This document shows positions 990 through 18,194 of a stretch of DNA of 34,281 nucleotides, in pieces. Within the stretch, counting starts at the first letter, position 1; the number at the start of each line of letters is the position of its first letter. Source of the stretch: a virus. Both the position numbers and the translations under genes were made by a program. Under the pieces are notes generated by a model, which did not search any database, had not been told where the DNA came from, and was given only the letters and a program-made list of their open reading frames with translations. The stretch is from IMG/VR virus record IMGVR_UViG_3300022751_000036, positions 1-34,281 of that record; one strand, 5' to 3'.

Positions 990-3686
990 TCAACCCTCTT
1001 CTCCAACTTCCCGTTCGCGGTAGTGCCCGGTAAAATGCCCCATCGGGATCCATGTCAGACGTGACACGCCGCCGCCGATAAACCGCTCGGACGTACTCGA
1101 TTTTATCGCGCCCGGTATCGACCGCAGCGGGCGTTTCCAGTCAGCCTGCCACTGGGTCATGCCGCGCAGCAACTGCCGCGTGTTATCCGCGCTGTCCGAT
1201 ATCCCGACGAACTCGGTATCGACCTTGATGCCGACCATCCCCAGCGCCTCGCGGTATGGCCCGCGCCCGTTCTCTGTCCTGGCCTCATCAATCGCCGTGC
1301 CGATCGTCATTTCCAGCGCGCCCTTGCCCTGCACGTAAACCTTGATCGGGCGCGTGATGATATATTGCAGCAACCTCATTTCATCGGTTTCGGCATTCAG
1401 GGCGACATAATCACCCCAGTCATGCCTGCGGATAAACTCGGCGGCGACGTCGGCGGATATCGCGTCGGTCTTGTGGCAGAGGTAATAACCGGCCAGCATC
1501 GGCGCGATCTGGTTCGCCGCACGACGCGACTTGAACACATGTGCCGCAGCTGTCTCGAACGTCTTGATGTTCGCCAGCAACGTTGGCAGGTTTTCGACGG
1601 TGCGCAGGAACATCGCCGACGCAAATTCAGGCGTGAACCATGCGTCGATGTCGCGCACCAACGTCATGTAGTGGTCATCCGATTTCTCATGCGTGTTCGG
1701 CACCAGAACCAGTTTCGAGATACGGCTTTCGTCGGCCTTGTGTCGCACCGATGTGTTGATCGATGAAAAACAGAACGGAGACCGCATGATATAAATCTTG
1801 GCGACCCCGTTCGTGCCGCCCTTGGGGATACGCGCGCCGCTCGATGCCGACCGGGCCAGATCGAGGATCTGTTGCATCCGCAGTGCCGACGCCTCATCCT
1901 CGCCCTCGGCCTCATCGAAAATCACTGGCCGCGCGTCAAAGCCCATGAGCTGACGGATCGCGGCCTCGGTGACCTTGCCATCGACCTTTTCCGATGCAGG
2001 CCCTACCAGGCGCAGGATGATATCGAGCGCGGTCGTTTTACCCGATCCCGATGGTCCGGTCACCCAGATATGGGAACGCCAGTCCAGCGCGCCCGCAACC
2101 GGCGCAATCACGCACCACCCGCACATCAGGGCGCCACTCATGGGGTCGGCCCATGTCAGGCGTTCGCATATCTGCTTCACGCGGTTCGCATCCGACGATG
2201 ATGCGGCGTGGCCATATCCGAATTCCCACGGGTCGCCAGCCTCGTATATAAAACGGCTGGCCACCTGCGTCAGCGGCATAGATTCGGTCCCGATACGCGC
2301 CTCGCTGCCGGTGTTCACGATCACCCGTTTGCCGTCGATCCATGCACCACGGCCACGTAACCGGCCCTCATCGAAAATCCCGCCATCCTCGCATTTCCGC
2401 ATCAGGGCATTCGCGAACCCCTGCCAGACATCCTTGCCGAGCTTTTCGCCGTGGTTCAACGCCTGCCAGTAATCAAGACCGGCCAGTTCCAGCAACCGCA
2501 ACGGGGTATGCTCGGACGCGCGCAGGGCAACGATCTGGCCCGTTCCGCGTGGCAGGTAATAAAACGCCCCACGGTTATACCCAAGGCACTGGAACGCATC
2601 GTTGTTCCGGGGTTTCGGTTTCTCGGTCTGGGGTGCATCGACGGGCAATTCGTCGTGGCGCTCCTCGATAAATTCTCCTGTTTCTGGGTCGTAATCGGCA
2701 GGCACATCATCACGCGCTGGCGGCGACCATGAACCTTGCGGACGCGCATTCGGGTCAGCCTTGCCTACATCGAACCCGCGCCGGACCAATGCCTCTACCT
2801 CGGCGCGTTGCCATGCCGGTTTCCCCGGCGCATTCATCATCGACAAACCGGCATCGACCATCACCGAGATCGCATAATTCACGTCGAGCGAACCACCATA
2901 GGCAATCGACCCAACCCTACATGATCGGCGGAACAGGGTATCGTTCTGCGAACCTGGCGGGCAACCCCGGACCTCGCGCGCGTTTTCCTCAAGGATTTTC
3001 TCGCCGTATGCCGTGTTCGATCCCGATTTCACCGGGGCGATGCGGGGCGCGTCGGGGTTCCGTTCGGTTTTCTCGTGGCGCACCAGTTCCAGCAGCCAAT
3101 CCGGTGCCATTGCTGGGGCGCAATCGTCGGGAGACACGATCCATTCATACTGGCCATCTGGGCGAGTGGATGGCGCGACGATGAAATATCCGCCACGACC
3201 GCCCGGCCGTTCGCCCAACGCATCAAGACCGCCACCGTTGCCATCGATGTCGTATTTCGTTCCCTTGAGAAACCGGATCGTCCGAGGCAGTTCGAGACCA
3301 TCATCAGGCCATGCGAACACGCGATGGATGCCGCCCGATGGGGTTTGCTGCGTCGGTGTCATCGGCAGCGGTTCATGCTCAGTCGCCAGAACCCGGATCG
3401 TTTCCTCGCCGCCATCATCGCTGTCCAGCACCCATATCCCGGATGCCTGACAGGTGCGGACTGCCATGCCGCGCGTTGGTTTGGCGGTCCACCACTTGCC
3501 GATCTGGGTGGGGTCGGTGGTGGCGTTCAGGTGGCCGTTCGGGGTTCCGGGTTCGCGCCCGGTCGCGATTTTATCCTGACCCTTGGATTTATATGCCTCG
3601 CCGGCAACGCGGATCGGGAACACCTGCCAGCCCATGGATGCGTATTTCAGGGCGTGGTCGGCCATGGGTCGGGTGGTGGTGGTCAT
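990..3686 (-). CDS. Bifunctional primase-polymerase / ATPase (helicase-like) replication protein
   Basis: This 898-residue protein joins an N-terminal prim-pol domain (residues about 8-215) to a C-terminal P-loop ATPase (about 500-720). In the prim-pol part, the metal-binding acidic motif VLDSDD (D88, D90, D91) and the SGGIH motif (H121) are visible. In the ATPase, Walker A is GPSGSGKT (544-551, K550) and Walker B is VIFDEAE (D591, E592), the layout of D5/phage P4-type replicative helicases. It probably primes and unwinds DNA at the phage origin. The start ATG overlaps the stop of the upstream macro-domain gene as ATGA. The second methionine at residue 8 is an alternative start. The C-terminal 150 residues resemble nothing I recognise. 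Replication role: high confidence; exact initiation mechanism: unknown. Confidence 0.88.
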   Translation of the reverse strand: MTTTTRPMADHALKYASMGWQVFPIRVAGEAYKSKGQDKIATGREPGTPNGHLNATTDPTQIGKWWTAKPTRGMAVRTCQASGIWVLDSDDGGEETIRVLATEHEPLPMTPTQQTPSGGIHRVFAWPDDGLELPRTIRFLKGTKYDIDGNGGGLDALGERPGGRGGYFIVAPSTRPDGQYEWIVSPDDCAPAMAPDWLLELVRHEKTERNPDAPRIAPVKSGSNTAYGEKILEENAREVRGCPPGSQNDTLFRRSCRVGSIAYGGSLDVNYAISVMVDAGLSMMNAPGKPAWQRAEVEALVRRGFDVGKADPNARPQGSWSPPARDDVPADYDPETGEFIEERHDELPVDAPQTEKPKPRNNDAFQCLGYNRGAFYYLPRGTGQIVALRASEHTPLRLLELAGLDYWQALNHGEKLGKDVWQGFANALMRKCEDGGIFDEGRLRGRGAWIDGKRVIVNTGSEARIGTESMPLTQVASRFIYEAGDPWEFGYGHAASSSDANRVKQICERLTWADPMSGALMCGWCVIAPVAGALDWRSHIWVTGPSGSGKTTALDIILRLVGPASEKVDGKVTEAAIRQLMGFDARPVIFDEAEGEDEASALRMQQILDLARSASSGARIPKGGTNGVAKIYIMRSPFCFSSINTSVRHKADESRISKLVLVPNTHEKSDDHYMTLVRDIDAWFTPEFASAMFLRTVENLPTLLANIKTFETAAAHVFKSRRAANQIAPMLAGYYLCHKTDAISADVAAEFIRRHDWGDYVALNAETDEMRLLQYIITRPIKVYVQGKGALEMTIGTAIDEARTENGRGPYREALGMVGIKVDTEFVGISDSADNTRQLLRGMTQWQADWKRPLRSIPGAIKSSTSERFIGGGVSRLTWIPMGHFTGHYREREVGEEG

Positions 3687-4042
3687 AGTCCGAGGATCGC
3701 CTTGAATTCGTCAGGTATGATGATGTTCGATGGTGACCGGGCGAACAGCGGCGCGATATCGGAAAACTGATATCCAGCGAGACCGCATCCGATGGGCGTG
3801 AGTTGGAACGTCATGGATGGATTATCCGTAGCGAAAATCTGGAATTTCCGCACATGCGCTTTTACCTCATCAAGCGGCAACGTGCGCAGGTTCGCATCCT
3901 TGGTCGGGATGGCATACGAATTTCCCTGCATGCCCTCGCCTTGGCCATAGATAGCGCCTCGGTGCTGCCGCGCCCATAGTGCAGCACCCTTGCCATGACG
4001 GCCTGCGAGGTTGCTGCCGAATACGAATACAGGGTCGGTCAT
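3683..4042 (-). CDS. Macro-domain-like protein (possible ADP-ribose binding/hydrolysis)
   Basis: This 119-residue protein begins MTDPVFVFGSN. It carries FGSNLAGRHGKGAA at residues 8-21 and TPIGCGLAGY at 82-91, the two glycine-rich loops expected of a macro-like fold. Proteins of this type are frequent in phage early regions. Macro domains bind ADP-ribose or related nucleotides, and some remove ADP-ribose from macromolecules. Which of these applies here cannot be read from sequence. The start at 4042 is preferred over a 25-residue longer reading. It has an AAGAGGG ribosome-binding site and conserved residues begin immediately. Its stop overlaps the primase start (ATGA). A role in countering NAD- or ADP-ribose-based host defences is possible but is inference. 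Confidence 0.72.
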   Translation of the reverse strand: MTDPVFVFGSNLAGRHGKGAALWARQHRGAIYGQGEGMQGNSYAIPTKDANLRTLPLDEVKAHVRKFQIFATDNPSMTFQLTPIGCGLAGYQFSDIAPLFARSPSNIIIPDEFKAILGL

Positions 4043-4058
4043 GGTCTGCCCTCTTGAA

Positions 4059-4289
4059 TTATTCGACGCGCCCAACCCGATGCTTTCCATCCCCCTCTGG
4101 GGCGATGACGAATTCACCGACCAGAGGATTTTTCACACGCGCCCGAGCAAATCGGATTGTCGCGTAAATATGAGGGTAGGACCGATCAACCAGAATGGAC
4201 TGGCCGACATTAAGCATGCCGAGTTGCTTTGTCAGCCCCGGACCTTTGTTCACAGGCTTGGACATCGCCACGTTTTCGATTTCATACAT
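4059..4289 (-). CDS. First gene of early operon, 76-residue protein of unknown function
   Basis: This 76-residue protein starts MYEIENVAM. It is the promoter-proximal gene of the leftward operon. It has a good ribosome-binding site (TAGGAG, 8 nt before the ATG) and lies about 20 nt downstream of the predicted start site of the promoter at 4315-4343. It is rich in basic and small residues and has no membrane segment or recognisable motif. Sixteen bases separate it from the macro-domain gene. By position it could be a small DNA-binding or host-takeover protein, but nothing in the sequence demonstrates this. Confidence 0.7.
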   Translation of the reverse strand: MYEIENVAMSKPVNKGPGLTKQLGMLNVGQSILVDRSYPHIYATIRFARARVKNPLVGEFVIAPEGDGKHRVGRVE

Positions 4290-7034: not shown

Positions 7035-7111
7035 TCTGGATTTTATACGCCGTGTTTTTGATTTCATGCGCCGTGTTCTGGGTGGCATGTCCAAGGGATG
7101 ATTTGCCATGA
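7031..7111 (+). CDS. 26-residue single-span membrane microprotein
   Basis: The product is almost entirely one hydrophobic helix (MIWILYAVFLISCAVFWVA) followed by a short tail, CPRDDLP. It overlaps both neighbours by ATGA and is thus the third link in a chain leading into the Lar-like gene. The in-frame upstream extension toward 6920 lacks a start signal and would overlap the other two microgenes, so the short form is chosen. Function unknown. It may work with the preceding membrane peptide. Confidence 0.5.
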   Translation: MIWILYAVFLISCAVFWVACPRDDLP

Positions 7112-8001
7112 CCCATGTAGAAGACGAGAGCCCGGTAACGAGCGAGATGCTGCCCTGCCCGTTTTGTGGCGAACCTGCCGAAGTCGACATGTCTCGCGGC
7201 TTCCGGGCATTACGCGAAGGAACGATCCACTCGGGCGTATCAATCTACTGCTCGGCGTATTGCCATGTGGAGATGATGTTGAGCCGCGCCGATTTGCCGG
7301 AATACGACAACGATCAGTTGCTGGCTATGCTCACCGAACAGTGGAACCACCGTTCCCTTGGTAAGGCTGATGGCGTGGGGGTTCGGGAACTGGAGTGGGA
7401 AACAGTAGAGGGGCCCCATGGGGTATGGTGGAGAGCCCTTAACCCAATGGGCGGAATGCATATTGAGGCCACCACAGAGGCGGAGAAGGCAGAAAAGCAA
7501 GCCGACTTCAACACCCGCATTCTTTCCGCCCTCTCCGTCCCTCTGCGCCCTGATGAGACAGAAGGGGGAGGGGGTGGGGAGACGGAGGCTCAGATGACCG
7601 TCTATTACCTCCGCCTCAAGCGCTACATGCAGAAGATCGCAGCCCTGCGGGAAAGCGAAGGGGCGGAGCCGTTTGATGACGCGCTAGATTTAGCCGACAC
7701 GGCCCTGCTTGAAACCGCCCATATCCCTACCCAAACCGAGATGGGGCAGGCTTTCTATGTTGACGTGTGCCGCCTCGAAGATCGTGTGAAGGAATTGGAA
7801 GCGGCCCTCGCCTCCCCTACCCCCGATGGGGTGGTAACTGACGCGGCTTGGCATGATCGCGGTTATGCTGCCGGGTTCAAAGCAGGTGTCGATTGTGGGA
7901 TGAACGGGACGGATGAGGAGATAAACCGCCGCCTCGCTGAAAACGCCAGGGATAACGCCGCCGCCCTCAAAGCCCTTCAACCCAGTGGGAGCGTGAAGTG
8001 A
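7108..8001 (+). CDS. Lar-like zinc-ribbon protein with long C-terminal extension
   Basis: The N-terminal 85 residues hold LPCPFCGEPAEV (C17, C20), then IYCSAYC and a closing WNHR. This is the pattern of Lar/restriction-alleviation-type zinc-ribbon proteins common in prophages. Classical Lar modulates type I restriction. Most family members are untested, so the name marks the fold only. The 297-residue length is far above the usual 60-100. The rest contains a WWRALNPMGG segment, a helical Glu/Ala-rich part and a region of likely coiled coil near 200-240 (VCRLEDRVKELEAAL). Such composite proteins are frequent in alphaproteobacterial phages. Translation is coupled to the microprotein before it. 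Confidence 0.65.
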   Translation: MTHVEDESPVTSEMLPCPFCGEPAEVDMSRGFRALREGTIHSGVSIYCSAYCHVEMMLSRADLPEYDNDQLLAMLTEQWNHRSLGKADGVGVRELEWETVEGPHGVWWRALNPMGGMHIEATTEAEKAEKQADFNTRILSALSVPLRPDETEGGGGGETEAQMTVYYLRLKRYMQKIAALRESEGAEPFDDALDLADTALLETAHIPTQTEMGQAFYVDVCRLEDRVKELEAALASPTPDGVVTDAAWHDRGYAAGFKAGVDCGMNGTDEEINRRLAENARDNAAALKALQPSGSVK

Positions 8002-9488: not shown

Positions 9489-11345
9489 ATGTCCGAAGCC
9501 AAGCCCCGCCATCGCGTAAAAGCCATATCGGCTCCCATGAATGATGGCCTGGTGAACATGGTCTCGCGCCTCGGAACCGGCGCCGACAAATCCGCCCATT
9601 ACCGCTACATCCGCTCCTATGTGAGCCAGCAGGATATCGACGCGGCATATCGGTCGAGCGTGTTCAAGAAGGCCGTCGACATCCCGCCCGGCGACATGGT
9701 GCGAGAGTGGCGCGCGTACAAGGGCGTTGATGAGGATCAGATTACGCTGATCGAGGCCGAGGAAACCCGTCTGGGTCTGCGCCAGAAACTGCGTGAGGCC
9801 ATGATTATGGCGCGCAAGGATGGCAACTCGGTGATCCTTCTGGGCGCTGGTGGCAACGCAGCCGGCAAGCTGAACCCAGAGGTCGTGCAGCAAGGTGGCC
9901 TGAAATATATCACCGTCCTGAGCAAGGATGACATCACGCCTCGCATGCGGGACCGTGACCCCTACAGCCCAACATTCAATGAGGCGTCATACTGGACGCT
10001 GAAAAACACGGCGCAGACCCAGATCCATCCATCGCGCGTCATCAAGTTCACGAACAATCCGATCCGTGAGCAATTCACATGGGACGGATGGGGCGGCGAG
10101 TCCCTGTTCGCCGTCATGCAGCGCGCCATCACGAATAACGACCAGATCGCAGGCGCAATCGCCGCACTGGTCGATGAAGCCAAGGTCGACGTCATCAAGC
10201 TGAAAAACCTGATGTCGAACCTGTCCACATCGGACGGTGAATCGCTGTTGGTGCGCCGGTTCGCGGCGGTGAATACGCTGAAATCCATCGTTAGCGCCAT
10301 GGTCATCGACGGCGATGACGAATACGACCAGAAAACCCAGACATTCACTGGCCTGACAGACATCCAGAACATAGCCATGGTGATCGTCGCCGGCTTGGCT
10401 GATATCCCGGTCACCCGTTTGTGGGGTCGATCCGCTGCCGGCATGAATGCCACTGGCGAGGGCGATTTGCGGAATTATTACGACAACATCCGCGCCATGC
10501 AGACGATCGACCTATCGCCGACCATTTCGCCGCTCGATGAGTGCATGTTCCGGTCTGCGCTGGGCGAACGTCCGCCAGAATTGTTCTATGAATGGAACCC
10601 GCTCTACCAGATGACCGAGACCGAATCCGCAACGGTCGAGAAAACGTTTGCCGATGCCGCTGTGGCGTTGGCGAATTCAGGTCTGGTGCCCGATACCGCG
10701 CTGATCGAGATGGTCAAGGGCGGAATCATCGAGCGCGGGCAATGGCCTGGTGCCGAAAAAGCCTATGGCGAGGCCGAAGCGGCTGGCGATGAACCCGGCC
10801 TGACTGCGGAACCAACCGAAGCCGAAATGGCCGAGGAAGAAGCCCGGACGGCGATTGCGCTGGCTGCGGCGAATGGGAATGCGCCGGCCCCGATGCGAGC
10901 CGCCAACGATGCCCGGTTTGCGCGTGATGCCGCGCCACGAACCCTGTATGTCCGCCGCGATGTCGTGAACCGGGCAGAAATCAAGAAATGGGCAGTGGCG
11001 CAGGGGTTCACGGATATCGTGCCTGATCTGCATGTCACCATCGTTTATTCCACGACGCCGGTTGATTGGTTCAAGGTCGGCGAAAGCTGGTCATCCAAGA
11101 TCGAGATATCGGCAGGCGGTCCGCGCCAGATGGCAACGTTCGGAACCGATGCGCAGGTTTTGCTGATTTCTGCGTCCGAACTTCGGTGGCGGCACGAAGA
11201 AATCATCCGTGCCGGTGCGCACTCGGATTACCCTGAATACCAGGCTCACATCACGATCACATATGGCAGCATGCCTGATGGCGTGACCCCGTATCAGGGC
11301 AAGATCGTTCTCGGCCCAGAGATTTTTGAAGAGGTTAAACCCTGA
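9489..11345 (+). CDS. Portal protein fused to a C-terminal Acb1-like 2H phosphoesterase
   Basis: This is a 618-residue protein. Residues about 20-430 form a portal of the DUF1073 type, with VSQQDIDAAYRSSVFKKAVDIPPGDMV, GNSVILLGAGG and PVTRLWGRSAAGMNATGEGD visible. It would make the dodecameric DNA channel of the capsid. After an acidic Ala/Glu linker (about 430-470), a second domain follows with two H-x-T motifs: LHVTIVYS (H515, T517) and AHITITYG (H587, T589). Paired HxT motifs are the signature of 2H phosphoesterases. The spacing and flanks resemble Acb1, the phage enzyme that degrades the cyclic oligonucleotides of CBASS immunity. That activity is known for T4 Acb1. Here it is inferred from motifs, and other 2H substrates (tRNA ends, cyclic phosphates) are possible. 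An AAGGG ribosome-binding site lies 7 bp before the ATG. The stop overlaps the next start by one base. Confidence 0.85.
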   Translation: MSEAKPRHRVKAISAPMNDGLVNMVSRLGTGADKSAHYRYIRSYVSQQDIDAAYRSSVFKKAVDIPPGDMVREWRAYKGVDEDQITLIEAEETRLGLRQKLREAMIMARKDGNSVILLGAGGNAAGKLNPEVVQQGGLKYITVLSKDDITPRMRDRDPYSPTFNEASYWTLKNTAQTQIHPSRVIKFTNNPIREQFTWDGWGGESLFAVMQRAITNNDQIAGAIAALVDEAKVDVIKLKNLMSNLSTSDGESLLVRRFAAVNTLKSIVSAMVIDGDDEYDQKTQTFTGLTDIQNIAMVIVAGLADIPVTRLWGRSAAGMNATGEGDLRNYYDNIRAMQTIDLSPTISPLDECMFRSALGERPPELFYEWNPLYQMTETESATVEKTFADAAVALANSGLVPDTALIEMVKGGIIERGQWPGAEKAYGEAEAAGDEPGLTAEPTEAEMAEEEARTAIALAAANGNAPAPMRAANDARFARDAAPRTLYVRRDVVNRAEIKKWAVAQGFTDIVPDLHVTIVYSTTPVDWFKVGESWSSKIEISAGGPRQMATFGTDAQVLLISASELRWRHEEIIRAGAHSDYPEYQAHITITYGSMPDGVTPYQGKIVLGPEIFEEVKP

Positions 11346-15410: not shown

Positions 15411-15808
15411 GCGTGAAATCGCATCAGGATCGTCTGCGCCGGATGGCGCGGGATACGGCGCAAGAGGTCGTGCGAAAACTGTATGTCGCCGGCCAGATGA
15501 TCGAATTGGATGCCGAGCGGTCCATCACTGCGGGCAGCGTATCGGGATCGGGTCACGTTCCCAGCGCACCAGGTCAGCCGCCAAACCGCGATACCGGCCT
15601 GCTGGATGGATCCATTGAGACTGAAATCAGATCGCAGATGCCGCCCACTGTGACTGTCACATCGCGCGCGCCATACGCCGCGCACCTGGAATACGGGACA
15701 TCTCGCATGGAGCCGCGACCATACATGCGCCCGGCGACCCAACGGAACCGCGATGAGGTCACGCGCGCGGTGGGCGAGGCTGTGAATATTATTATCAAGA
15801 GAGGTTGA
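15407..15808 (+). CDS. HK97 gp10-like head-tail connector/completion protein
   Basis: This 133-residue protein has an amphipathic N-terminal helix, then GHVPSAPGQPPNRDTGLLDGSI and APYAAHLEYGTSRMEPRPYMRPA. The LE-x-GTS-x-x-x-PRP-x-x-RPA stretch is the signature of HK97 gp10-family proteins, which join head and tail. Length is normal. The ATG overlaps the MuF stop. A promoter-like sequence lies over its last codons, at 15805. Confidence 0.85.
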   Translation: MSVKSHQDRLRRMARDTAQEVVRKLYVAGQMIELDAERSITAGSVSGSGHVPSAPGQPPNRDTGLLDGSIETEIRSQMPPTVTVTSRAPYAAHLEYGTSRMEPRPYMRPATQRNRDEVTRAVGEAVNIIIKRG

Positions 15809-15833
15809 CGGTGTGCGCGGGTTATGTGCATAT
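15805..15833 (+). promoter_or_regulatory. Candidate promoter leading into the structured RNA region
   Basis: TTGACG (15805-15810), a 17-bp spacer and GCATAT (15828-15833) repeat the layout seen at 6781-6809. It overlaps the stop of the gp10-like gene. Transcription would start near 15840 and could run through the structured leader, the 87-residue gene and the large structured RNA to the terminator at 17027. Confidence 0.4.
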
Positions 15834-16017
15834 CGTCGTATTGATAGACGCCCGCCGATGATTGTAGGGGTTGCAACCTCGGATTGTTGGAAAGACTATG
15901 GCGACCGTGGGTGGCGTTACCCTAGAAGCCCGAAGTCGGAACAGGTATCGAAGTCGTTTGATCCAGCGGCGAGCAGCCGATAAAAATCAGGTCCGCGTGG
16001 TCCCGGCGATACGGGAC
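15817..16017 (+). ncRNA. Structured non-coding leader upstream of the 87-residue gene
   Basis: This 230-bp gap has several clear inverted repeats: GCGGG 15817-15821 with CCCGC 15851-15855, CGTC 15834-15837 with GACG 15847-15850, CGGC 15967-15970 with GCCG 15976-15979, and GTCCCG 16000-16005 with CGGGAC 16012-16017. GAGGTTG (15801-15807) can also pair perfectly with CAACCTC (15874-15880). CGAAGTCG is directly repeated (15931 and 15949). It may be a regulatory leader or part of the larger RNA downstream. No known riboswitch is recognised. Confidence 0.35.
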
Positions 16018-16039
16018 AACAAATTCCAAGGAACCCGCC

Positions 16040-16303
16040 ATGCCAGAATTCACCCGATCGACCAAAGTCAGCGCGACGCAGTGGAACAAGAACGGCGACC
16101 ATCCTGCCGTCCGATCCATCCCGAGCGAGGATGACAGCCTGATCGAGCAATACGGGTCGGCTGAAAAGATCGAGGAAGGCGTCCGTGGTTTCGTTTCGAC
16201 GCCGCGTGGCGAGCGTCTGGTGAACATCGGCGACTGGATCGTCGGCGAGGGTGATAATCTGTCGGTTTATACCGATGAGGCGTTTTCCGAGATTTTTAAG
16301 TAG
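16040..16303 (+). CDS. Small phage protein with GDWIV motif, 87 residues
   Basis: The protein contains VSATQWNKNGDHPAV near the N-terminus and RLVNIGDWIVGEG near the C-terminus, ending in an aromatic F-S-E-I-F. The A-x-QW ... GDWI(I/V) pattern recurs in a widespread family of small phage proteins of unknown function. An AAGGAA ribosome-binding site precedes the ATG. It is isolated between two structured non-coding stretches and may be transcribed with them from the promoter at 15805. Confidence 0.75.
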   Translation: MPEFTRSTKVSATQWNKNGDHPAVRSIPSEDDSLIEQYGSAEKIEEGVRGFVSTPRGERLVNIGDWIVGEGDNLSVYTDEAFSEIFK

Positions 16304-16578
16304 GATCGAATACGCCAGAAATGGCAAACGATGACAGGCCGGAAAGAACGGTCAGCGAGGTACGCCGAAAGGCATGAGCCGTGATCCATGTGAGGCAAAT
16401 ATGCGGGCCTCATGTATCTCGCAGAAATTCGCTGGCGCTGGATAGCGACGGCAACGAGTAGGGAGTGATGCGCACTGAGGGGAAGATGCGGTTGATCCCG
16501 TAATCACTCTTGGTAGGCGGTCTGGGGAAAATAGCGGGCCTAATCAGCCTGCAACGATACCCAACTTCCGACTAATAA

Positions 16579-16666
16579 GCGTGGATAGCACAAGGTGTGC
16601 GCCGGATTTGTAATCCGTGAGGAGGGCGTCATGACGCGATGGGTTCAATTCCCCCACCCCGCTCCA
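16579..16666 (+). tRNA. tRNA-like element, anticodon UGU (Thr-like), long variable arm
   Basis: An 88-nt cloverleaf fits: acceptor GCGTGGA with ACCCCGC (5 of 7 pairs), T8-A9, D stem GCAC/GTGC with a short GG-containing loop, anticodon arm CCGGA-TTTGTAA-TCCGT (anticodon TGT), variable arm GCGT-CATG-ACGC, T loop TTCAATT, and encoded 3' CCA (16664-16666). The anticodon loop is like that of bacterial tRNA-Thr. However, a long variable arm belongs to Leu, Ser and Tyr tRNAs, and the T stem has only 3 of 5 pairs. It may be a decayed or unusual tRNA, or a tRNA-like domain of the surrounding RNA. Confidence 0.5.
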
Positions 16667-16993
16667 TAAACAGGGCTTGAGTGTCCGGCATTCGGTGGCC
16701 TCCGCGTCGTGGCGAGGATATTGTGGCGACGAGCTACAGCCGAGCGGATCGCCCTGCAAGAATTGATGCCGAAACCCGGACGCATCCGGTAGTTTGATAC
16801 GCGCTGTGGACCCGAGATAGCGCGCGGGCGGCATCAAAACAGGTTCGTGACGACGAACATGCACGGCAGGAAGATCGCGGCAATATTCCGGGTCGATCCT
16901 GCCAGCTAATTCGATGGGTGTGTTCTGGGCTGTAAGGGACGTGCAGCCAATCTTCCTGCGTTACACAATAAGCGACATCCCTGCGCCATCGAT

Positions 16994-17027
16994 AACCCGC
17001 CCAACCTCAACCGTTGGGCGGGTTTTT
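16994..17027 (+). terminator. Strong intrinsic terminator ending the structured RNA
   Basis: AACCCGCCCAAC (16994-17005) and GTTGGGCGGGTT (17013-17024) form a perfect 12-bp stem with a 7-nt loop, followed by a T tract ending at 17027. It insulates the protease/capsid operon from upstream transcription. Confidence 0.9.
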
Positions 17028-17035
17028 CTATGCCC

Positions 17036-17064
17036 TTGCCAGATAACCGAAACGGGGTTAATTC
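17036..17064 (+). promoter_or_regulatory. Candidate promoter of the protease/capsid operon
   Basis: TTGCCA (17036-17041), a 17-bp spacer and TAATTC (17059-17064) begin right after the terminator. The ATG at 17073 follows by 8 bp without a Shine-Dalgarno sequence, suggesting a leaderless or nearly leaderless mRNA. Confidence 0.5.
17045..17061. promoter_or_regulatory. Operator-like 17-bp motif, copy in capsid promoter
   Basis: AACCGAAACGGGGTTAA matches the copy at 24435-24451 at 15 of 17 positions. It fills the spacer and enters the -10 box of the capsid-operon promoter. Confidence 0.55.
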
Positions 17065-17072
17065 TGGCAACC

Positions 17073-18194
17073 ATGATCCTCACCGACCGCATGACATTCG
17101 ACGCACCGAAGCGCACCAAGGAAGGCTATATGGCCGTCCGTGCGAATTCGGCTCGGGCTGGCGTGTATGACTACATGGGATATGAGGTCGATCCGACCGG
17201 CACGAAATTCCAGGCGAACGACCGCGTTTCAGTTTACCGGCCCGCCGATGAAGTGTTCGATGAGAAGTCGGTTCGCTCATTCCTGCTCAAGCCCATCACC
17301 AACGATCACCCGACCGAGGCAGTCACCTCCGACAATCATTCGCGGCTGTCCAAGGGCGTCGTTGCCAAGGCGATCCGCGACGGCGACCATCTGGCGTTCG
17401 ATCTGGTGTTTTTCGATGCGGCCACGATCAAGGATATCGAGAGCGGCAAGCGCGAACTGTCCAATGGGTATGGCGTCGACCTGACATTTGAGGATGGCGT
17501 TGCGCCGGACGGAACCGCATATCAGGCGGTCCAGCGGAACATCGCTGGCAACCATGTCGCGCTGGTCGATAAGGGTCGCGCAGGACCATCTTGCGCGATT
17601 GGCGTTTGTGATGCTATCACTGACGCAAATCTTAACCAGATTTTGGATAATCTCGGAGAACATCCAATGACGTTGAAGCCCGTGACCATCACCATCGACG
17701 GCGCGAGCCATACCGTCGATCTTTCCGACGCTGCCGCCATCCTGGTCGGCCAGCTCAACACCAAACTCGCAACCCTCGCAACCGATCTGGCAACCGCCCA
17801 GACCGCAGTCGGCACCCATCTGGCAACCATCAGCACCAAGGACGGCGAGATCGCTGGCCTGACGCAGAAGCTCAAGGATGCAACGGCCATCGACCTCGAC
17901 AAGATGCTGGCCGATCGTGAGGCGGTCGTTACCGCTGCCAAGGCGATCATGCCGACGCTCGACGCCAAGGGCAAGACGGTCGAGGCTGTCCGAAAGGAAG
18001 CCGTCACCGCCAAACTCGGCGATGCAGCCAAGGATATGGATGACAACGCCATCCGTGGTGCATTTGCCGCGCTGACTGTCACCTCCGACACCGACACCCT
18101 GCGCGACGGCATCACCCAGATCGACCGCACCCAGACCAACGATGCCCGTTCAGGTTATCTGGGCCGCATCACCCGCAACGTGAAGGCAGCTTAA
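17073..18194 (+). CDS. Prohead protease with C-terminal scaffold (DUF2213 type)
   Basis: This 373-residue protein begins MILTDRMTFDAPKRTKEGYM. The N-terminal 180 residues match DUF2213-type prohead maturation proteases, with LLKPITNDHPTEAVT, SNGYGVDLTF and NHVALVDKGRAG. The His in NDHP and a following Ser are likely catalytic, by analogy with the HK97-like fold. Residues about 199-373 form an Ala/Thr/Lys-rich helical scaffold (QLNTKLATLATDLATAQTAV). The start was set at 17073 because the longer frame from 16914 would read through the terminator and promoter. The gene precedes the cement and major capsid genes, the usual order. Methionine at residue 7 is an alternative start. Confidence 0.85.
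   Translation: MILTDRMTFDAPKRTKEGYMAVRANSARAGVYDYMGYEVDPTGTKFQANDRVSVYRPADEVFDEKSVRSFLLKPITNDHPTEAVTSDNHSRLSKGVVAKAIRDGDHLAFDLVFFDAATIKDIESGKRELSNGYGVDLTFEDGVAPDGTAYQAVQRNIAGNHVALVDKGRAGPSCAIGVCDAITDANLNQILDNLGEHPMTLKPVTITIDGASHTVDLSDAAAILVGQLNTKLATLATDLATAQTAVGTHLATISTKDGEIAGLTQKLKDATAIDLDKMLADREAVVTAAKAIMPTLDAKGKTVEAVRKEAVTAKLGDAAKDMDDNAIRGAFAALTVTSDTDTLRDGITQIDRTQTNDARSGYLGRITRNVKAA
17667..18194 (+). CDS. Nested in-frame scaffold protein (internal start)
   Basis: Inside the protease gene, GGAG lies 8 bp before an in-frame ATG at 17667 (residue 199), exactly at the protease/scaffold boundary. Translation from there gives a 175-residue protein starting MTLKPVTITIDG that contains only the helical scaffold. 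Lambda makes its Nu3 scaffold from gene C in this way. The internal ribosome-binding site is better than that of the full-length gene, consistent with excess scaffold. This is inferred from the signals only. Confidence 0.5.
   Translation: MTLKPVTITIDGASHTVDLSDAAAILVGQLNTKLATLATDLATAQTAVGTHLATISTKDGEIAGLTQKLKDATAIDLDKMLADREAVVTAAKAIMPTLDAKGKTVEAVRKEAVTAKLGDAAKDMDDNAIRGAFAALTVTSDTDTLRDGITQIDRTQTNDARSGYLGRITRNVKAA

Follow-up and report, generated by a model that had tools for sequence, protein, structure and literature searches.

The window, by which we mean the whole stretch of DNA analysed here, is an IMG/VR virus record of 34,281 bases, and the closest relatives of its head protease among bacterial genomes are found in sphingomonads. 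Its head operon encodes, in this order, a portal protein with an Acb1-like C-terminal domain, a Mu-F-like head protein, a neck protein and an 87-aa ORF; 769 gene-free bases then precede the genes for a DUF2213 head protease, a cement protein and the major capsid protein. An earlier note had pointed to a gene-free region in this operon, and we found it at 16304-17072, between the 87-aa ORF and the head-protease gene. The window was compared with two related phage contigs: L004, whose protease is 73% identical to that of the window, and L326, which was located via a conserved core of the RNA described below. Both have a similar kind of region ahead of the protease gene. The features flanking the RNA are as follows.

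15993-16025, + strand: 33-nt block ahead of the 87-aa ORF, containing the hairpin GTCCCG-GCGATA-CGGGAC
16040-16303, + strand: 87-aa ORF immediately before the RNA, with a weak match to PHROG (E=4e-4)
17036-17070, + strand: hairpin TTGCCAGA/TCTGGCAA in the leader of the head-protease gene, near-invariant in the window, L004 and L326
17073-18194, + strand: DUF2213 head maturation protease gene (Pfam DUF2213, E=3e-54; PHROG head maturation protease, E=4e-79)

The true start of the protease is 17073, and the start at 16914 is a mere upstream extension of its ORF. The 33-nt block is 100% identical to L326 5291-5323, within the gene-free region of that contig. The 87-aa ORF has partial relatives (51%) in L002 and L003 and was not found in L004. 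Hairpins also lie close to the DUF2213 start codons of L008, L009, L012 and L014, with differing sequences. Elsewhere in the window, the portal protein (9489-11345) is fused to a C-terminal Acb1 (anti-CBASS, 2H phosphoesterase) domain, and a 297-aa ORF at 7108-8001 carries a Lar restriction-alleviation domain near its N-terminus.

Conserved blocks and covarying helices

The RNA runs from a hairpin, here called M, through domain P2, a tRNA-Thr-like domain, an optional module and a 3' hairpin block to a closing helix and a terminator. Its parts are listed below; R1 is a covariance model of M.

16332-16354, + strand: hairpin M, UGACA-GGCCG-GAAAGAA-CGGUC-A (R1, 25.9 bits, E=0.001)
16355-16422, + strand: domain P2, with a 9-bp closing helix (16355-16363 with 16414-16422)
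16426-16456, + strand: middle anchor AATTCGCTGGCGCTGGATAGCGACGGCAACG, which includes the hairpin CGCT/AGCG and is identical to L326 over 31 nt
16579-16666, + strand: tRNA-Thr-like domain with CCA (Rfam tRNA, 23.7 bits at 16579-16663, E=0.035)
16669-16840, + strand: optional 172-nt module, containing the 9-bp helix 16763-16771/16829-16837; absent from L004
16841-16910, + strand: 3' anchor, 91% mean column identity over the window, L004 and L326; hairpins GTTCGT/ACGAAC (16843-16858) and GGCAGGA/TCCTGCC (16865-16871/16897-16903)
16911-16992, + strand: closing helix P9 (16911-16917/16986-16992), with a variable insert within
16994-17029, + strand: intrinsic terminator (stem 16994-17024), whose arms differ yet stay paired in L004 and L326

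The earlier note had argued for a structured RNA from the abundance of perfect helices. The three that it quoted (9 bp in the optional module, 7 bp in the GGCAGGA hairpin and 7 bp in P9) are present base for base. The excess over random sequence claimed for their number was not confirmed: the region has seven perfect helices of at least 7 bp where shuffled versions average 3.7, and seven or more turn up in 10 of 100 shuffles. The fold z-score was -3.6 with the terminator (20 shuffles) and -2.3 without it, where coding segments of the same window gave values from +0.5 to -3.3; the opposite strand was less structured (z -1.5). Helix counts and folding energy are therefore not decisive. L004 does not preserve a GAAA hairpin that lies near 16364-16373. 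By its pattern, the terminator noticed at the end of the region was confirmed, with a 12-bp stem, a 7-nt loop and a T tail at 16994-17024; it is the strongest site found and is likely the 3' end of the RNA.

The relatives were more informative. The window, L004 and L326 have in common short blocks that occur in the same order, with unalignable sequence between them. Within IMG/VR, the exact 22-nt core of the middle anchor was found only in the contigs of L004 and L326, as was a 28-nt core of the 3' anchor. Moreover, three helices covary, as the earlier note had proposed to check in homologous regions: changes on both sides affect 4 of the 9 pairs of P2, 4 of the 7 pairs of P9 and 1 of the 5 pairs of the anticodon stem. 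The P2 arms read GCGAGGTAC/GTATCTCGC in the window and GCGATGGGT/ACCCATCGC in L004, and one further pair is changed on a single side and none is broken. For P9, the arms are TCGATGG/CCATCGA in the window, TCGATGC/GCATCGG in L004 and TGGTAGC/GCTACCA in L326, which leaves one wobble and no broken pair over the three sequences. Pairing by chance is unlikely, because the arms hold fixed places beside conserved anchors; a random-pairing estimate puts it at about 0.001-0.01 per helix, for what is a limited sample of two or three sequences. A perfect 10-bp pairing of 16866-16875 with 16950-16959, which competes with the conserved GGCAGGA hairpin, is absent from L004 and is therefore either chance or a window-specific switch.

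This comparison demonstrates, at the sequence level, that the blocks are conserved and that P2, P9 and the anticodon stem covary, and the structure is credible because the helices covary in relatives. The claim of a structured RNA ending in a terminator within the head operon thus holds by virtue of the relatives and fails as an argument from helix counting. On this comparative evidence, the stretch from 16304 to about 17027 appears to encode a real structured, modular non-coding RNA.

The known family of this RNA has three members only. A DNA search with the whole region gave no match in cultured phages, a plasmid search with its 3' part gave no match, and 398 genomes of one sphingomonad family gave chance-level matches only. 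We considered whether the same RNA lies upstream of several other protease relatives and rejected this, as those regions resemble small coding ORFs instead. A homologous hairpin M stands at the corresponding place in L004 (19.0 bits) and, in canonical form, in L018 (42.1 bits), a more distant relative with a protease just 39% identical; canonical M was not found in L326.

The tRNA-like domain and known RNA families

The domain at 16579-16666 has cloverleaf arms, a canonical T-loop (TTCAATT), the GG of the D-loop and CCA. It also has two acceptor mismatches, a short D-loop, a long variable arm and a broken T-stem; ARAGORN called no tRNA there, and its score, like the 23.3 bits of L004, does not reach the cut-off of 29 for Rfam tRNA (RF00005). 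The two domains are about 91% identical. Their anticodons are both for threonine, UGU in the window and GGU in L004, and in the anticodon stem a C-G pair of one is compensated as T-A in the other, and a mismatch of the window is a pair in L004. Position 33 is U in the window and A in L004. U33 is universal in functional tRNAs, and its loss in L004 would argue against decoding. With these features, the domain resembles a tRNA mimic more than a tRNA that decodes. It shares with phage tRNA genes and arrays an acceptor with CCA, a T-loop and, in both window and L004, an anticodon for one amino acid; it differs from them in the sub-threshold score, the lack of an ARAGORN call and the irregular D-loop, T-stem, variable arm and, in L004, A33. 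The corresponding place in L326 is occupied by a tRNA-like array, and two of its pieces bear a weak likeness (23.2 and 20.8 bits) to the permuted tRNA mimic of YrlA Y RNAs, in which T-arm, hairpin and D-arm follow one another.

Such a degenerate tRNA-like unit could also be expected at a variable cargo site, where decayed tRNA genes and intergenic debris accumulate and where the shared blocks would reflect recent exchange between phages and not function. The inserts at this place do differ between relatives, and neither helix counts nor fold energy are exceptional. However, P2, P9 and the anticodon stem all carry two-sided compensatory changes, the block order is kept across three contigs, and M is shared with L018 at so low a protease identity. 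These points speak against mere debris, and we consider this explanation unlikely.

We then compared the RNA with known families. The whole window gave no match to Rfam at the gathering threshold, GOLLD (RF02032) and ROOL (RF03087) included, and these two also failed to match 15780-17120 in a search with relaxed filters at E<=5. In that search the only matches were sub-threshold ones to the Rfam families named tRNA, P9 and anti-hemB, and the model of the YrlA Y RNA (RF02553) gave none. GOLLD and ROOL are reported near tRNA islands, and GOLLD linkers at times contain tRNAs (PMC12286853). Phage origin, size and tRNA-like content of the window RNA resemble what is reported for them, all being large, structured RNAs from phages or prophages; the window RNA differs in consisting of short conserved blocks, exchangeable modules and hairpin M. 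Given that neither model matches even at the relaxed threshold, a divergent GOLLD or ROOL RNA is very improbable, and the kinship suggested in the earlier note found no backing in Infernal-type model searches. Its other guess, a new class, was the better one, in view of the tRNA-Thr-like domain and of a recurrent hairpin that is not in Rfam; both the domain and the hairpin at 16332 had escaped it. With YrlA, the likeness lies in the order of T-arm, hairpin and D-arm in the L326 pieces, with a similar order at L316 and L256. However, the L326 pieces remain far below the cut-off of 69, it is the module alone that resembles YrlA, and the tRNA-like unit of the window is in normal order, with no Rsr-binding stem identified. 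By their models, the window RNA is not GOLLD, ROOL, tRNA or YrlA; it resembles other tRNA-linked phage RNAs.

Hairpin M in other phages

M is defined by UGACA, a 5-bp stem with a G-C closing pair, a GARAGA loop and a 3' A. In the window it is the one real match to R1 (the next best reaches 10.2 bits), and it differs from the definition by one extra loop base, for which reason we treat it as a divergent member. M was found in at least 200 other phage sequences; a sequence scan of IMG/VR alone gave at least about 120 stretches, and R1 usually finds a single copy per phage record. The same model gave 1 match over 299 sphingomonad genomes.

In a second IMG/VR scan the commonest pair was excluded and nine base combinations were allowed at one stem position. 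Among the matches listed, 102 distinct copies had C-G (83), A-T (13), T-A (5) or T-G (1) at the tested pair, that is, 101 Watson-Crick pairs, one wobble and no mismatch. Other copies have very different stems (TGCGG/CCGCA, CTCTG/CAGAG, GCCGG/CCGGC) around a constant UGACA, GARAGA loop, G-C closing pair and 3' A. The loops of GACA-preceded hairpins were GAAAGA in 146 cases and GAGAGA in 88, the next reaching 8, in a tally skewed by the many loci that had been collected with the motif itself. G-U pairs are frequent, with CGGTC in 26 of the 77 copies that have a GGCCG 5' arm, and M is co-directional with the next gene in 91 cases and opposite in 24, as counted with a crude ORF caller that placed many copies inside spurious ORFs and whose gap lengths were for this reason kept out of the evidence. 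These two observations point to M being an RNA element. An outer helix around M beyond U-A was considered and rejected, since the flanking bases pair no more than composition predicts. From these patterns of substitution, M is a recurrent phage RNA element, widespread and covarying.

An Rfam 15 search of M-bearing loci returned no family at the motif, save sub-threshold RprA matches lying across M-like hairpins in the leaders of two prophages. A search of open-access journal papers by motif letters returned unrelated work only. Within the open-access literature and Rfam, M is thus apparently a phage RNA element not described so far, and it may be categorically new. RprA-like sRNA tails (43 and 38 bits; cut-off 70) occur at L249 506-405 (-), L225 401-300 (-) and L320 about 3828-3900, in M-bearing gene-free leaders of enterobacterial prophages. 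The L320 leader, of an E. coli prophage (3400-4150; about 930 nt), holds several GGAAAGAC hairpins with different stems, together with GAGGAAAGACCAA repeats.

The neighbourhood of M establishes its association with tRNAs and tRNA-like RNAs. Of the T-arm signatures counted up to about 1.2 kb away from M, 124 share its strand and 4 are on the opposite one. Among the 104 T-arms at -400 to +800 of M, ARAGORN accepts 44; of the 60 that it does not, 26 have a perfect 7-bp acceptor partner, as compared with 5-7 in controls, and about half of these partners begin 1-5 nt after M. Where an ARAGORN tRNA follows within 300 nt (n=20), M sits 0-9 nt before it in 15, and this is its usual distance from a following tRNA or tRNA-like RNA. 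In the annotated genome of Bacteroides phage BS-TP2, for example, a tRNA-Leu-like RNA that the annotation lacks lies 3 nt beyond the end of M. Pseudomonas phage Itty13 and Planktothrix phage Pag-Yong1 carry M as well. Permuted tRNA-like modules (T-arm, hairpin, D-arm) were seen in the M-bearing contigs L316 (about 364), L256 (about 1181) and L274 (about 2425).

Most copies of M have no recognisable tRNA nearby, and many stand 20-40 nt before unrelated protein genes, which would fit a cis-acting element as well. The genes downstream are mixed (ssDNA-binding proteins, polymerases, helicases), and a single functional class was rejected. In this alternative, the region would be an intercistronic control RNA that works in cis, where M and the domains behind it might influence RNA processing or the polymerase during transcription, much as HK022 put or nut sites do; some transcripts would pass the terminator, and this would set the ratio of the upstream connector to the downstream protease and capsid. 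The terminator lies within the head operon directly ahead of the protease gene, the hairpin in the protease leader is kept in the window, L004 and L326, and the co-direction of M with the next gene points the same way. M also occurs in early-operon-like leaders, one in an E. coli prophage and one in a phage of Stenotrophomonas, and in phiEt88 it follows the antitermination gene; antitermination signals of lambdoid phages occupy such places (HK022: PMC9378689). HK022 put and M are both short structures in phage leaders, put acting as nascent RNA and M being similarly placed in some phages. However, put spans about 70 nt and folds into two stem-loops (PMC9378689), whereas M is a single small 5-bp hairpin with fixed UGACA and GARAGA, and no such hairpin occurs in the part of HK022 examined. 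Same-strand terminators are not enriched behind M (for 245 copies, one terminator within the first 100 nt), phages usually have one copy, and the tRNA-like association is left unexplained, unless untranslated RNAs need protection from Rho. We therefore regard a cis-acting role as possible but doubtful.

A proposed tRNA-mimicking RNA headed by M

We favour the reading in which the window RNA mimics tRNA and has M at its head, with a probability of roughly 55%; its function is less certain than its identity. The RNA would be transcribed toward the head genes and end at the terminator before the head-protease gene. M, in the 5' part, would serve a tRNA-like RNA gene as its leader hairpin; behind it come, without a gap, the closed helical domain P2 and then the tRNA-Thr-like domain with CCA, optional modules and the 3' hairpins. 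The RNA would work in trans as a tRNA mimic, without decoding. Its acceptor/T-arm half could engage host machinery that binds tRNA, namely RNase P, CCA addition or EF-Tu; alternatively, the target could be defence nucleases that attack tRNA, with the RNA as a decoy. M may serve as a processing or protection signal for the RNA downstream.

The conserved blocks and covarying helices in two relatives support this explanation. The tRNA-like array at the corresponding place of L326 supports the mimic reading, as do the same-strand T-arms, the acceptor partners after M and the position of M 0-9 nt before tRNAs. Against it stand the distance in the window, where the tRNA-like unit begins about 225 nt after M and not directly after it as elsewhere, the small family, in which L326 is without canonical M, the majority of M copies that have no recognisable tRNA close by, and the unexceptional fold energy.

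A broader reading, which we hold to be about evenly balanced as a whole, would place M at the head of a class of non-coding RNAs among which tRNA mimics, changed in their D and anticodon halves, are frequent, and of which the window RNA would be the head-operon member; M would then be undescribed, usually single-copy, and carried by phages of Proteobacteria, cyanobacteria and Bacteroides.

If this is true, many phages would have one locus that makes non-decoding, tRNA-like RNAs, marked by a hairpin unknown to annotation pipelines. This would raise the question of which host or defence machinery is engaged by phage tRNA mimics, and of what reads M. A short covariance model would let such loci be found in any phage genome.
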